Source: Bacilli bacterium (GTDB lineage Bacteria > Bacillota_I > Bacilli_A > Haloplasmatales > Haloplasmataceae). From it: 51,398 bases of DNA. The stretch lies in assembly GCA_012516175.1 (NCBI GenBank), contig JAAYWZ010000002.1, forward strand, positions 1 to 51,398, in the 5' to 3' direction. The position numbers and the translations under genes are program-made. Of the stretch, positions 14,685 to 36,265 are shown in pieces. Numbering within the stretch: the stretch's first letter is position 1; each line of letters begins with the position of its first letter. The notes beneath the pieces were generated by a model. That model saw only the letters and a list, made by a program, of their open reading frames with translations, made no database searches and had not been told where the DNA came from.

Positions 14685-14732
14685 GTTGGCTAAATATTTG
14701 ACGCCTATTCAGGTTTTCAAATATTCGCCACC
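14685..14732 (-). other. Group II domain VI with branch-point A
   Basis: GGC-GAATATTTGA pairs with TCAAATATTTA-GCC around a 15-base loop. The unpaired A at 14691, seven bases from the 3' splice site, is the expected lariat branch nucleotide. Confidence 0.85.
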
Positions 14733-14766
14733 AAACCGTACATGAAAGTTTCCAATCATACGGCTT
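14733..14766 (-). ncRNA. Group II intron domain V (catalytic hairpin)
   Basis: A 34-base hairpin. It opens AAGCCGTATG with the catalytic AGC triad, has the GGAAAC tetraloop region and closes with ATGTACGGTTT, matching the domain V consensus closely. Its integrity suggests the ribozyme is still able to splice. Confidence 0.94.
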
Positions 14767-14789
14767 TCCAATTGCGCAGTAATCTACGT

Positions 14790-18561: not shown

Positions 18562-18970
18562 AGGTGCGTGTGCAGTATTCTGTAAGCCATGTTCTGTACC
18601 TTCGTACTCCTAGCGGATGCCTCCTCGTACTCAGGTGGTAATCATTTGTCTACAGAGATTTACTCTGTCCCCAATCCCTGTTCATTTCCAGGGATCAGAG
18701 TTCCCCTACCAAAATTTGGGTTTCTCGCTCGTGGGGTTTACCAACGTTCCACCCTAGCAGTTTCCCGCTAGGCTCGTCTCTGTGGCACTTTTATAGGTAC
18801 TCACACCATGCCCAATATGGGTTTAGGTGTTTTCCCAGCCGTCAGGCTAACCTGCCCTGACTTATGTCTTCGTCAGGCACGAACACTACAAGCATCGCAG
18901 CTTGTGCGAGCATGGACTTTCCTCATCAAAACCCAATGGTCTTGACGCGATTACCCGAATACCACACACA
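18562..18970 (-). ncRNA. rnpB: RNase P RNA, Bacillus class B
   Basis: About 409 bases. The conserved 5' core GAGGAAAGTCCATGCTCGCAC and the 3' core ACAGAACATGGCTTACAGAA are present, as are GGGTAATCGCG near the start and the CGAGCCTAGCGGGAAACTGCTAGGGTGGAAC region. The ends GTGTGTGGTATTC and GAATACTGCACACGCAC pair as helix P1, fixing the boundaries to within a few bases. The lack of the class A arrangement fits a Firmicute. It is the catalytic RNA that trims tRNA 5' ends. Short frames inside this stretch are not genes. Confidence 0.97.
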
Positions 18971-31120: not shown

Positions 31121-32038
31121 TTACATCATGTACCGCTTAATATATTCTTCTAACCTAAAGTCACCCAAATATTGTTTTGTAACCTGATACCCACTATGAT
31201 ATAAGTTTTCAATTTGGGCTCTTGACAATCGAAAATCAGTGGATTTTAAATTGTCGGGATTATCAATGGTAATAATACGAACTAGGTCTTTACTACTCAC
31301 ATAAGTTAACTCATCCTTATTTAAAGCAGCAGTAACTAAATCATGGGCATAAGCAAGTAAGTTTGTTTTGCCTTTTTTAGTATAACTTTCTGGATCTTTT
31401 ATTTTAATTCCAATTGTAGGTCTCGTTGGTTTTCCCGTCTTTTCAAAAACCCATATTGGAAAAGTACTGATTAATCCACCATCTACAACATATGAGATGT
31501 AATTGTTAGATAGCACTCTTACAGGAGTAAAAAAGACAGGAATAGTACAACTCATCTGGACAGCTTTACTTATAGGATAACTCTTAGGGTCCTTACCGTA
31601 AAAAGTGATATCATCAGGTAAAATAAGCAACTTTCGATTAGTAATATCCGCTGCCATAACTTTCAGGGGACATTCGTTATTAACATAGAGGTCACCAAAC
31701 ACCTTGATATTTTTCTTTGCTAGAAGCATATCTATCCACTTAGAAATCACATTACCATCATATAAACCTTTACTAAATATTAATGACAAGACTTTGCCCA
31801 CTACAGGAAAACTACCAAAAGGAGGAGTTTTGAGAAACATAGTAAAGTCAGTATCAGCCAACTCATCTTTTAACTCTTGAGGTGTAAACTTCGCACAAAT
31901 TAATGATGCAATGACACTACCAGCACTAGTGCCGGCTACTCGCATGATTTCAAATTTCTTCTCATAGAAAGCTTCATAAGCCCCAACAAAACCAATCCCT
32001 AAAACGCCACCACCTTCAAACACTAAATCAACTTTCAA
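31121..32038 (-). CDS. Patatin-like phospholipase
   Basis: 305 residues. The oxyanion motif GGGVLGIGFVGA is at residues 9-20, the nucleophile Ser38 in GTSAGS and the catalytic Asp186 in VVDGGLIST, so the Ser-Asp dyad is complete. Family members cleave acyl groups from phospholipids or other esters in the cytoplasm or at the membrane; some are phage-defence effectors, but no cGAS-like or other defence partner is next door. The ATG overlaps the stop of the upstream coiled-coil gene by 4 bases, so the two are translationally coupled. Confidence 0.93.
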   Translation of the reverse strand: MKVDLVFEGGGVLGIGFVGAYEAFYEKKFEIMRVAGTSAGSVIASLICAKFTPQELKDELADTDFTMFLKTPPFGSFPVVGKVLSLIFSKGLYDGNVISKWIDMLLAKKNIKVFGDLYVNNECPLKVMAADITNRKLLILPDDITFYGKDPKSYPISKAVQMSCTIPVFFTPVRVLSNNYISYVVDGGLISTFPIWVFEKTGKPTRPTIGIKIKDPESYTKKGKTNLLAYAHDLVTAALNKDELTYVSSKDLVRIITIDNPDNLKSTDFRLSRAQIENLYHSGYQVTKQYLGDFRLEEYIKRYMM

Positions 32039-32952
32039 GCTATCACCTGCATGAATAAGTTTTGTTTTGCTTTTTCAATTTCTAACAATTCTTGTAAGTA
32101 CTTATCTTTATACTTCATTAATGTTTCTAGTAGTTTAGTTAACACTAAAGGATAATGCTCAGCTTGATCTAACACTTTTCTTAATGATTCTTGTTCTTTT
32201 AAATCATCATATAAATGATTCTCGATGTAATAATATAACTCTTTAAACTCTTGTAAATTAATTTGAAGGTTGGTGTAGTAATTAATCGTTTTAAGCGTAC
32301 GCATTAGTTTATTACCCCGGTAATATAGTTCTTTAACTAAAGTTTCCGTATTTCTAAACTCAGGTGTTTTCGTTATTGATAACAAGAGCCCACGACTTAA
32401 TATATCGAAGTTATTCCAGTTTTTCGTATTATCAACTACTCTTTGAAACTTATCCACTGACTCTAAGATGATTTTAATACTATTAACAGCTTCATTTAAT
32501 AAGCGGATTCTTAGTTTGATTTTACATGCTTCTTCATGATGTGCAAGTAAACTCTTAAGTGTTTCTTTTTCCTTATTAACTATCACAAATTCGCCTTCTA
32601 GTTCAAGTTGTTTTAGTTCATTTTCATAACCATTTATGTTATTTAGTTTTTGATTATAATCTTCTTGTTCCTGCATTAGATAATGTAGAAGATGATACAA
32701 TAATTTATAATCATAAACTATCTTTGGTACTTCCTTGCCTTTGGTTGTAAAAATTGTAAACCAAATAACTAGTAAATCTTCTTTATCTATTTCTCTAGGG
32801 CTAATACCACTCATTTCTAATTTCCTTGTGAGAACACTTAAGCGTTGTTGCGATATATTGATTAGCTCATGGAATTCTTGGTTCATTTTCTCATAAATAA
32901 ACTTCTGATAGGTTTTTTCATATAATTCTAAATATTTTTTTATCATTTCCAT
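32035..32952 (-). CDS. Uncharacterised helical protein coupled to patatin gene
   Basis: 305 residues, no family recognised. It is almost entirely alpha-helical and charged, with coiled-coil-like stretches (residues ~90-165, LNNINGYENELKQLELEGE and following, and ~250-300). No signal peptide or membrane segment. GGGGAGGG lies 7 bases before the ATG. The 4-base overlap with the patatin gene implies a fixed stoichiometry or a direct partner, for example a regulator or scaffold of the lipase. Confidence 0.72.
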   Translation of the reverse strand: MEMIKKYLELYEKTYQKFIYEKMNQEFHELINISQQRLSVLTRKLEMSGISPREIDKEDLLVIWFTIFTTKGKEVPKIVYDYKLLYHLLHYLMQEQEDYNQKLNNINGYENELKQLELEGEFVIVNKEKETLKSLLAHHEEACKIKLRIRLLNEAVNSIKIILESVDKFQRVVDNTKNWNNFDILSRGLLLSITKTPEFRNTETLVKELYYRGNKLMRTLKTINYYTNLQINLQEFKELYYYIENHLYDDLKEQESLRKVLDQAEHYPLVLTKLLETLMKYKDKYLQELLEIEKAKQNLFMQVIA

Positions 32953-33813: not shown

Positions 33814-34836
33814 TTAACGTTGCACTCTACCAGATGCATCGCCTTTTACTAATGTCTCTACTTCTTCTAATGATACTAAATTGAAATCACCAGGAATTGT
33901 ATGCTTTAAGGCACTAGCAGCTACCGCAAAATCTAATGCTTGTTTCATATCATCTTTAGTGAGTAAGCCATGGATTAAACCTGCACTAAAGGCATCACCA
34001 CCACCAACCCGATCAACAATTCTGATATCATACTTACGGGAATGATAGAATTCCTTACCATCATATATTAATGCACTCCAAGTGTTATCACTGGCAGAAT
34101 GGCTTTCTCTTAGTGTAGTGGCAACATATTTAAAGCCAAACTTATCAATCATTTGCTTAAAGATTTCTTGATAGCCAGTTAACTCTAACTCACCTTTAGT
34201 TACATCTGTTTTACCAGGTTTAAATCCTAAACACTTTTCTGCATCTTCTTCATTTCCGATACAAACATCAACATATTGCATCAGATTAGTCATGACTTTT
34301 TGTGCTTGCTCTTTTGTCCAGAGTTTCTTGCGATAATTTAAGTCACAGGATACTGTGACATTATTCCGTTTAGCTGTTTTTAGAGCCTCTTCTAATACCT
34401 TTTGTGCTTTTTCACCTAAAGCGGGGGTTATACCACTCCAATGAAACCATTTAGCACCTGAAAATATTTTATCAAAGTCATAATCACTAACATCAGATTC
34501 TGCAATCGCTGAATGAGCCCGGTCATATATCACGTTTGATGGTCGCATGCTCGCACCAGTTTCTAAATAATAGATTCCGATACGCTCACCACCACGGGCG
34601 ATAAAATCTGTCTTAACCCCAAAACGCCGTATGTAGTTAACTGCTGCTTCCCCAATCTCATGTTTAGGTAACTTGGAAACGAAGTAAGCTTCATGACCAT
34701 AATTGGCTAAACTTACTGCCACATTAGCTTCTCCTCCACCAAAAACCACATCAAAACTTTGAGTTTGAACAAAACGCTGGTATCCTGGGGTTGAGAGTCT
34801 TAACATGATTTCTCCTAAAGTAATTACTTTCGCCAT
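33814..34836 (-). CDS. kdgK: 2-keto-3-deoxygluconate kinase (PfkB family)
   Basis: 340 residues of the ribokinase/PfkB family. The sugar-binding GGGEANVAVSLANYG lies near residue 33 and the anion hole/catalytic Asp in VDRVGGGDAFSAGLIHGL near 290. The IMLRLSTPGYQRFVQTQSFDVVFGG start and WFHWSGITPAL fit KDG kinases, which phosphorylate 2-dehydro-3-deoxygluconate in hexuronate and Entner-Doudoroff routes. No KDPG aldolase gene is adjacent; the GH2 enzyme 10 kb away is the only related sugar gene. It has a long structured leader upstream. Confidence 0.88.
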   Translation of the reverse strand: MAKVITLGEIMLRLSTPGYQRFVQTQSFDVVFGGGEANVAVSLANYGHEAYFVSKLPKHEIGEAAVNYIRRFGVKTDFIARGGERIGIYYLETGASMRPSNVIYDRAHSAIAESDVSDYDFDKIFSGAKWFHWSGITPALGEKAQKVLEEALKTAKRNNVTVSCDLNYRKKLWTKEQAQKVMTNLMQYVDVCIGNEEDAEKCLGFKPGKTDVTKGELELTGYQEIFKQMIDKFGFKYVATTLRESHSASDNTWSALIYDGKEFYHSRKYDIRIVDRVGGGDAFSAGLIHGLLTKDDMKQALDFAVAASALKHTIPGDFNLVSLEEVETLVKGDASGRVQR

Positions 34837-34942
34837 GCTTTTCGCTCCTTAAAATTATAATCTATATTACTTAATTATAAATTTAACTAAAATATAATAG
34901 TATTATTCAAAGAGTAATATTTATTAAAAACATTCTATAGTT

Positions 34943-34976
34943 ATTAAAAGTTTGCACACATATGCAAACTTTTAAT
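34943..34976 (-). repeat. Perfect 14-bp hairpin in the kdgK leader
   Basis: ATTAAAAGTTTGCA and its exact complement are separated by 6 bases, about +55 to +88 of the predicted kdgK transcript and 107 bases before its start codon. The A run before and T run after resemble a weak bidirectional terminator, so an attenuator is possible. Confidence 0.7.
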
Positions 34977-35000
34977 AGGAAGTAACATGGTAAACTTTTT

Positions 35001-35030
35001 ATTCGGATATACGAATTGCATTCGCAATTC
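35001..35030 (-). promoter_or_regulatory. Nested palindromes at kdgK transcription start
   Basis: GAATTGC-GAAT-GCAATTC (35030-35013) starts at about +1 of the predicted transcript, and ATTCG-TATATC-CGAAT (35016-35001) overlaps it. A perfect 7-bp palindrome directly after a -10 box is typical of a repressor operator. The regulator is not in the window. Confidence 0.6.
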
Positions 35031-35037
35031 TATAATT

Positions 35038-35066
35038 ATTTTATCTTAACTTGATAATAAAGTCAA
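35038..35066 (-). promoter_or_regulatory. Sigma-A promoter of kdgK
   Basis: TTGACT (35066-35061), a 17-base spacer and TAAAAT (35043-35038), just downstream of the SpoU methyltransferase stop. It leaves an untranslated leader of about 195 bases. Confidence 0.75.
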
Positions 35067-35074
35067 TATTTACT

Positions 35075-35803
35075 TTAAAAAGAATGTTTAGTAAATTCGT
35101 ATAAGGCAATACCTACTGCGATTGATAAATTTAAGGAGTCGATTGTTTTTAAGTGCGGGATTACGACACTAGTGCCCACATTTGAAAAACTATTATCTAA
35201 TCCCTTTGCCTCATTCCCAAAAACTAATCCAAAAGGTTCTGGTTGTATTTTAACATCTTGGATCTTTAATTTGCCATTTAGCATGAAAGGATAAAAATGA
35301 TGCTTGGTAAATTGATTTTGATACTCAGTAAAATCATTGAAATAGGTAAAATTAATGTTAAATAAGGCACCCATAGATGCTCTGATTGTTTTGGGATCAA
35401 AAATATCAACTGCTGGTTTAATAATCGCGATATCGCGAATTCCAAAGCCCAAACTTGTTCTTATAATGGTTCCTAGATTACCTGAGTCACTTGGATTTAC
35501 AAGTACTACATGATTATCATTTTTACTTAATACAGGTTGGTATTTTTCAAAGATGCCAATCGCAAAGCAGTTTTCTTTAGGAGAGAGTTTTTCAATTAAC
35601 TTATCGTTAAACTCATATGGTATCTTTTTATCTTTACATAAAGAAATTATTTTATTTATTCCTTCTGATTCCTTGGCTTTTGTGTGTAAAAAAACAGTGA
35701 TGACGTGATTAGCTTGATGATTTAAGAGTTCAATGGTTAAAAAACTACCCAAGGTATATGAATAATCTAAATCCTTTTTATAAGTTCTTATTTTAGTAGT
35801 CAT
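35075..35803 (-). CDS. SpoU/TrmH family RNA methyltransferase
   Basis: 242 residues. An N-terminal L30e-like substrate-binding part (1-90) is followed by the SPOUT knot domain with the three family motifs: NPSDSGNLGTIIRTSLGFGI (motif 1), LVFGNEAKGLD (motif 2) and IPHLKTIDSLNLSIAVGIALYEF (motif 3). It 2'-O-methylates a ribose in rRNA or tRNA using S-adenosylmethionine; the target cannot be assigned. TTATAAT lies upstream but the -35 box is poor. Confidence 0.92.
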   Translation of the reverse strand: MTTKIRTYKKDLDYSYTLGSFLTIELLNHQANHVITVFLHTKAKESEGINKIISLCKDKKIPYEFNDKLIEKLSPKENCFAIGIFEKYQPVLSKNDNHVVLVNPSDSGNLGTIIRTSLGFGIRDIAIIKPAVDIFDPKTIRASMGALFNINFTYFNDFTEYQNQFTKHHFYPFMLNGKLKIQDVKIQPEPFGLVFGNEAKGLDNSFSNVGTSVVIPHLKTIDSLNLSIAVGIALYEFTKHSF

Positions 35804-35920
35804 AATTTCACTCCATTTCGTGATTATTATAACACTAAATTACAAAGGGTAAAAGTTACTAAAAATAAATAACCTTATAAAACATTTTGGAATTGTTCAT
35901 AATATTATTGAGGTGATTTG

Positions 35921-36265
35921 ATGCTGAAAAAAATCGGATTAGTCATCGCAAGTTGTTTTACTCTACTTTTCACAATGAATAATTATACTTTTGCTAATCA
36001 AATTCGACCTGAAGTAGTAGAACCACAGGATCGCTTCACCAGTGAAGACAAACGGATTCTAAAAGAAAAAATGGATGAGCTTAAACATAAGTATTTCTCG
36101 AACTGGAAAAACATGACAAAGGATGAAAGAAAACAGGCGCTTAAACAATACGAATTAGAACTTGATAAGTTTTGTAAGGAAAAGTATGGGTTAAGTTTCT
36201 CCGAATTAAAAGAAAAATATCCTAGTTATTTTAAACGTAAATATAATAAGAAAAAGGTATCATGA
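35921..36265 (+). CDS. Small secreted protein of unknown function
   Basis: 114 residues. A signal peptide covers about residues 1-26 (MLKKIGLVIASCFTLLF... ending TFANQ). The mature part is short, helical and very rich in Lys and Glu (residues 40-114), ending in a basic KRKYNKKK tail. No family recognised. The ATG at 35921 follows GAGGTG; a TTG one codon upstream is less likely. It has its own terminator. The mature protein is strongly basic at its C terminus, which would fit wall or DNA contact, but this is only inference. Confidence 0.75.
   Translation: MLKKIGLVIASCFTLLFTMNNYTFANQIRPEVVEPQDRFTSEDKRILKEKMDELKHKYFSNWKNMTKDERKQALKQYELELDKFCKEKYGLSFSELKEKYPSYFKRKYNKKKVS

Follow-up and report, generated by a model that had tools for sequence, protein, structure and literature searches.

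A gene-free stretch upstream of the kdgK gene, at positions 34837-35074 of a window of 51,398 nucleotides (the whole stretch of DNA that was analysed), is a real, conserved regulatory region, and the array found within it at 35024-35001 is, with a probability that we put at roughly 0.85, the three-box operator of a putative IclR-family, KdgR-like repressor that is encoded elsewhere in the same genome, beside kdgA. An earlier note, made from the letters of the window, had suggested a repressor operator combined with an attenuator or a new riboswitch; the operator part of that suggestion is now well supported, and a family (IclR, KdgR-like) can be named for the regulator, on the strength of four features of the sequence: conservation, the arrangement of the boxes, recurrence at regulator-linked genes of the pathway, and position relative to the promoter. 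Binding by this regulator, repression, and the identity of the ligand are inferred. In this way an uncultured Haloplasmataceae genome gains a predicted regulator, a predicted motif and a small predicted regulon made up of kdgK and kdgA, three-box IclR sites are tied to uronate use in two further families of Bacilli, and one conserved leader hairpin is singled out for direct test.

The kdgK leader and its surroundings

The window corresponds to contig C207 of a genome (‘G000’) of 2.26 Mb that is 99% complete. Two related genomes recur throughout the analysis: G001, which belongs to the same GTDB genus, and G002, which shares the family. The features of the region are as follows.

35061-35066, minus strand: -35 hexamer TTGACT, from a consensus scan; conserved in G001 and G002
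35038-35043, minus strand: -10 hexamer TAAAAT, after a 17-bp spacer; -10-like hexamers at the equivalent place in G001 and G002
35013-35030, minus strand: 18-bp palindrome GAATTGC-GAAT-GCAATTC, seen in the sequence; not conserved as such in G002
35001-35024, minus strand: putative three-box IclR-type operator, CGAAT (35024-35020), N3, ATTCG (35016-35012), N6, CGAAT (35005-35001); conserved in G001 and G002, recurs at uronate operons
34980-34998, minus strand: conserved 19-mer AAAGTTTRCCATGTTACTT; G000, G001 and G002 agree at 18 of 19 positions
34942-34977, minus strand: perfect 15-bp hairpin with a 6-nt loop, core AGTTTGCA/TGCAAACT; G000, G001 and G002 hold one copy each, at kdgK
34851-34941, minus strand: A+T-rich remainder of the leader; not detectably conserved
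34845-34850, minus strand: ribosome-binding site AAGGAG, read directly in the sequence
33814-34836, minus strand: kdgK, 2-keto-3-deoxygluconate kinase, PfkB family (PF00294), 340 aa

The best solved relative of the kdgK product is 2afb, itself a 2-keto-3-deoxygluconate kinase (E 3e-125). A SpoU-family methylase gene (trmH-like, 35075-35803) lies upstream of the leader on the same strand. The features first noted in the intervening DNA are all present: it contains no open reading frame of at least 80 aa, the 195-nt leader is structured (folding z = -4.6), and the TTGACT-17-TAAAAT promoter is present at 35066-35038 on the minus strand, which would place the start of transcription near 35031. As a match alone, this promoter does not exceed chance, since the 501 bases scanned hold 2 such sites where shuffled versions hold 3.0 +/- 1.7; TTGACT is nevertheless kept in position in G001 and G002.

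The neighbourhood itself varies among the three genomes. kdgK stands alone at the locus (33814-34836) in G000, a kdgK-kduI-kduD group occupies the matching spot in G002 (L080:7669-10320), no KduI match was found in G000 or G001, and a DDE transposase gene adjoins kdgK (L010:13-1041) in G001. Two proteins encoded nearby lack any Pfam or NCBIfam match: an apparently secreted protein of 115 aa (35918-36265, plus strand), with look-alikes, judged by eye, that keep its position in G001 (L010:3353-3697) and G002 (L080:11383-11763), and a protein of 305 aa (32035-32952, minus strand), which has a look-alike by eye nearby in G002 (L080:6568-7479).

A conserved three-box array and its recurrence at uronate genes

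A search for kdgK in 60 genomes gave some match in 30, although a large share of these matches are weak and fall on sugar kinases of other kinds. The leader is kept at three of the eight best kdgK loci (58-100% identical), those of G000, G001 and G002; no such leader lies directly upstream of kdgK in the remaining five (G005, G006, G033, G048 and G052), where the gene follows closely behind another. Two overlapping palindromic elements had been described at the expected start of transcription. The ATTCG/CGAAT pair is indeed present, as ATTCG-N6-CGAAT at 35016-35001. The 18-bp palindrome is present as well, at 35030-35013, and the exact sequence occurs only once in the 2.26-Mb genome, but it is not itself the conserved unit: it carries one mismatch in G001, and only its outer GAAT/ATTC is left in G002. 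What is conserved across the relatives is a set of three alternating boxes, CGAAT-N3-ATTCG-N6-CGAA, that overlaps the palindrome. The order of these boxes and their 3/6 spacing are constant in all seven aligned sites, with single-base changes in some boxes.

The 23-bp operator of G000 is identical to its counterparts at 21 of 23 positions in G001 and 20 of 23 in G002, and from the operator to the end of the hairpin 51 of 56 columns (G001) and 43 of 61 (G002) are the same. Fourfold-degenerate sites of kdgK, in contrast, are near saturation (57 of 124 identical in G001, 45 of 109 in G002), while the leader 3' of the hairpin retains 75 of 112 columns in G001 and 55 of 112 in G002. Because the identity of the operator-hairpin block is high relative to the fourfold-degenerate sites, the block is, as judged from these alignments, under selection, whereas none is detected on the remaining leader sequence. 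Array and hairpin alike are kept in G001 and G002, so that the outcome named in the earlier note as refuting, a lack of conservation in close relatives, did not occur.

Recurrence elsewhere was sought with patterns at two levels of stringency. An initial pattern, built on the kdgK sites plus the kdgA site of G005 and allowing up to two mismatches, gave 21 matches in the window's own genome versus 48 for a reversed control, and at that setting is thus not significant by pattern alone. One of the 21 lies on contig C191, in the 102 bp that separate an IclR-family gene from kdgA; it starts 7 nt past a TTGAAA-17-TATAAT promoter and agrees with the kdgK site outside the pattern as well (TATAT). A refined pattern, CGAANNNNRTTYGTATATNCGAA, with up to one mismatch, finds exactly two sites in this genome, at kdgK and at kdgA, and none with the reversed control. 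Across 198 genomes it finds 15 sites in 10 genomes, versus three reversed-control sites.

Nine of the 15 lie at uronate genes: two each in G000, G002 and G005, and one each in G001, G033 and G028. The G002 sites are found at kdgK and between the ortholog of the regulator and yiaL-kdgA-kdgK2. In G005, sites precede yiaL-IclR, an alginate lyase gene and a kdgA-kdgK2-kdgK-kduI-kduD operon, the alginate lyase site having two mismatches to the refined pattern and standing outside the count of 15. Beyond the family, the G033 site lies within an IclR-bearing pectin/uronate cluster, and the G028 site precedes a solute-binding-protein gene that opens another, in which uxaC, kduI, kdgA, kdgK, kduD and an IclR gene could be read by eye. 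Three further sites (0-1 mismatch; L140, L146 and L147), all in G082, lie before genes for apparently secreted proteins that belong to no clear family; only one of these proteins has a Pfam match (fn3). The last three have no visible link to sugars: the G165 site is inside a reading frame, and those of G094 and G024 precede ATPase-like genes. Neither the surroundings of kdgK in G006 and G048 nor those of kdgA in G082 yielded a convincing match when scanned.

These matches are not all independent of the patterns that found them. A weight matrix was trained on seven sites (three at kdgK, the window genome's kdgA site and three in G005), and the G002 yiaL-kdgA and G033 matches are independent of it; the refined pattern was written after those two were known, so that only the G028, G082 and three unrelated matches are independent of that pattern. 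Before other uronate genes, where the earlier note proposed to look for the palindrome, it is the three-box array that is found, at kdgA and at uronate operons. Sites resembling the catabolite (cre) consensus (one or two mismatches) also occur near the IclR-type sites of G002, G005, G033 and G028 (leaders L012, L079, L084 and L139); the leader in the window has none at two mismatches or fewer.

The candidate regulator and known IclR systems

In the window's own genome, the IclR-family gene (L122:7263-8009) directly adjoins kdgA, which encodes a KDPG/KHG aldolase, with the operator site between the two. Its product carries HTH_IclR and IclR_C domains, as do the other regulators scanned, and is 68% identical to the G002 regulator (contig C55) that lies beside the second G002 site. 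Against the KdgR model NF011671 it scores 129.6 bits, under the curated equivalog cut-off of 275 bits; the four regulators scanned score 130-162 bits against this model, and they match both the KdgR and the PcaR/PcaU models below cut-off. Because the score falls short of the curated cut-off, the protein is named on its sequence as ‘KdgR-like’ and is not filed as KdgR. Searches of the G001 genome found no regulator gene; its sole kdgA match comprises the C-terminal 53 residues and is cut off by the edge of a 4420-base contig, where the regulator would sit, so that a break in the assembly can account for the missing gene.

According to the proposed model, in the absence of sugar acid the regulator would occupy the boxes, which lie immediately 3' of the -10 hexamer, and so block initiation at both kdgK and kdgA. 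Enterobacterial KdgR responds to 2-keto-3-deoxygluconate, and by analogy this pathway intermediate would release the regulator.

The architecture has precedents. IclR-family operators made of three boxes in alternation, those of PcaU, PobR and HmgR among them, have been described (Suvorova and Gelfand 2021, PMC8222616), and these operators, like the kdgK array, combine one group 1 pair with one group 2 pair and are accompanied by an IclR gene that adjoins the target operon, as is also seen here. When fitted by hand to the group 1 core KTYCRY-W4-RYGRAM, the G028 site agrees at 16 of 16 positions, the G005 kdgA site at 15 and the kdgK site of the window at 13; the motif overall conforms to the group 1 form GKTYCRYW3-4RYGRAMC, with the window's kdgK site itself only a near fit. 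The third alternating box follows the group 2 arrangement, sharing the middle box with CGAAT-N3-ATTCG. The array thereby fits the published architecture, group 1 and group 2 arrangements combined (PMC8222616). It differs from those systems in its predicted 2-keto-3-deoxygluconate regulon, its occurrence in Haloplasmataceae and its CGAAT boxes at kdgK.

Regulators already called KdgR offer a second comparison. The gamma-proteobacterial KdgR is alike in its family and in its role in pectin and uronate use, but its motif, given as RWWGAAACGNCGTTTCAKKA in Table 1 of PMC8222616, differs from the kdgK boxes. The KdgR of Thermotoga maritima is likewise an IclR-family regulator of uronate metabolism, but its predicted regulon includes neither kdgK nor kdgA; control of both there is predicted to lie with UxaR, of the GntR family (PMC3750489). 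An IclR-type KdgR of Caldicellulosiruptor is called a KDG repressor in PMC8579813, where sites that overlap the promoter or fall in the 5' UTR are read as a sign of repression. A literature search found no paper on KdgR or uronate in Haloplasma, nor on IclR with 2-keto-3-deoxygluconate.

The leader hairpin and 19-mer

The operator model leaves the 19-mer and hairpin unaccounted for; these two make up a distinct conserved element in the transcript of kdgK. A perfect 14-bp hairpin had been noted at about +55; counted from a start at 35031, a perfect stem is indeed found there (34977-34942), with 15 pairs rather than 14. The window has three perfect stems of at least 14 bp, against none in any of its ten first-order Markov simulations, and z values of -4.1 to -5.4 mark the hairpin as stable. 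Its core, AGTTTGCA...TGCAAACT, is present in exactly one copy each in G000, G001 and G002 and is absent from the other six of nine genomes searched; the combination of hairpin and 19-mer occurs only at kdgK of those three. In G002 the lower stem is altered yet paired, with two pairs changed on both sides (RNAalifold on three sequences, too few to establish covariation, with broken or gapped pairs also counted), and the gap between the core arms grows from 6 to 12 nt. Retention of the stem despite these changes suggests a role at the level of RNA, and an RNA hairpin is favored over a protein dimer on DNA because such a change in spacing would be hard for a dimer to accommodate.

Searched with up to two mismatches in 60 genomes, the 19-mer occurs at 13 places in 11 genomes, three of them the kdgK leaders; the block is absent from the six of the other ten places that were inspected (L050, L040, L045, L044, L039 and L048, as distinct from L046, L047, L049 and L051). 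A covariance model (‘R1’), built from the three leaders, matched 10 of 395 genomes of the class at E <= 0.1: the three kdgK leaders at E 2e-13 or better, and seven others at 6e-4 to 0.08, of which the five inspected (L055-L059, leaving out L060 and L061) resemble terminators or coding DNA. An exact pattern of 19-mer and core was found in 14 genome_contigs records and in no viral_contigs record; the model scores only in those of G001 and G002.

The most likely reading, if a weakly supported one, is that of a stem in the 5' UTR with an effect on the stability or processing of the mRNA. It is improbable that the hairpin is instead the intrinsic terminator, or its remnant, of the upstream trmH-like gene. 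The other long perfect stems of the window do lie at gene ends, and in G000 and G001 the interval from the trmH-like gene to the kdgK promoter shows no other terminator; however, the hairpin is downstream of that promoter and would stop kdgK too, and in G002 the methylase gene has its own terminator-like hairpin and T-run before the promoter while the leader hairpin is still present. Nor does the hairpin have the form of an intrinsic terminator, a G+C-bearing stem with a U-run after it: its U-run is part of the stem itself, and in G002 amounts to just UUU. On the minus strand it is not called by a consensus scan.

An attenuator or new riboswitch was the other proposal of the earlier note. The first half of the 19-mer approximately repeats the 5' arm of the hairpin, and in each of the three sequences the 19-mer can pair with the 3' arm, so that a metabolite-binding or protein-controlled switch in which the two compete for that arm can be drawn; the stability of the hairpin, and conservation of the 19-mer and core across near-saturated divergence, would also be in keeping with it. 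The alternative helix, however, is 12-14 kcal/mol weaker (-3.9, -5.3 and -9.0 versus -17.6, -17.9 and -20.9 kcal/mol), no U-run extends past the stem, the leader 3' of the hairpin is unalignable, and no Rfam family matches. The model is convincing in only three of 395 genomes, with no homologue in the other 392 and scores in only two of the 14 records above, and the kdgA leader of the same genome is too short to contain such an element. We consider this proposal unsupported and such a switch unlikely. Similarly doubtful is the broader idea of a lineage-specific cis-regulatory RNA, adding a second, RNA-level control of kdgK to the IclR operator through mutually exclusive pairing or binding of a protein or metabolite.

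An equally slim chance attaches to the idea that AAAGTTTRC repeats are bound, as DNA, by a second protein that regulates kdgK: boxes of this kind are conserved, in two direct copies and one inverted, but the spacing of the inverted copy shifts from 6 to 12 bp in G002, that of the direct copies varies, and the exact inverted pair does not recur beyond the kdgK leaders in the nine genomes searched. A leader peptide can be set aside: the short frame opened by ATGTTACTT lacks a ribosome-binding site and has only five codons in G001. So can a known RNA family, since none reaches its gathering score (the best weak match is sau-19, at 22.2 bits versus a gathering score of 80), in agreement with the first impression that the leader resembles no known riboswitch. 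Elsewhere in the window, Rfam matches mark a T-box leader (2391-2605), the end of a group II intron (14685-14768) and a class B RNase P RNA (18578-18962), all on the minus strand.
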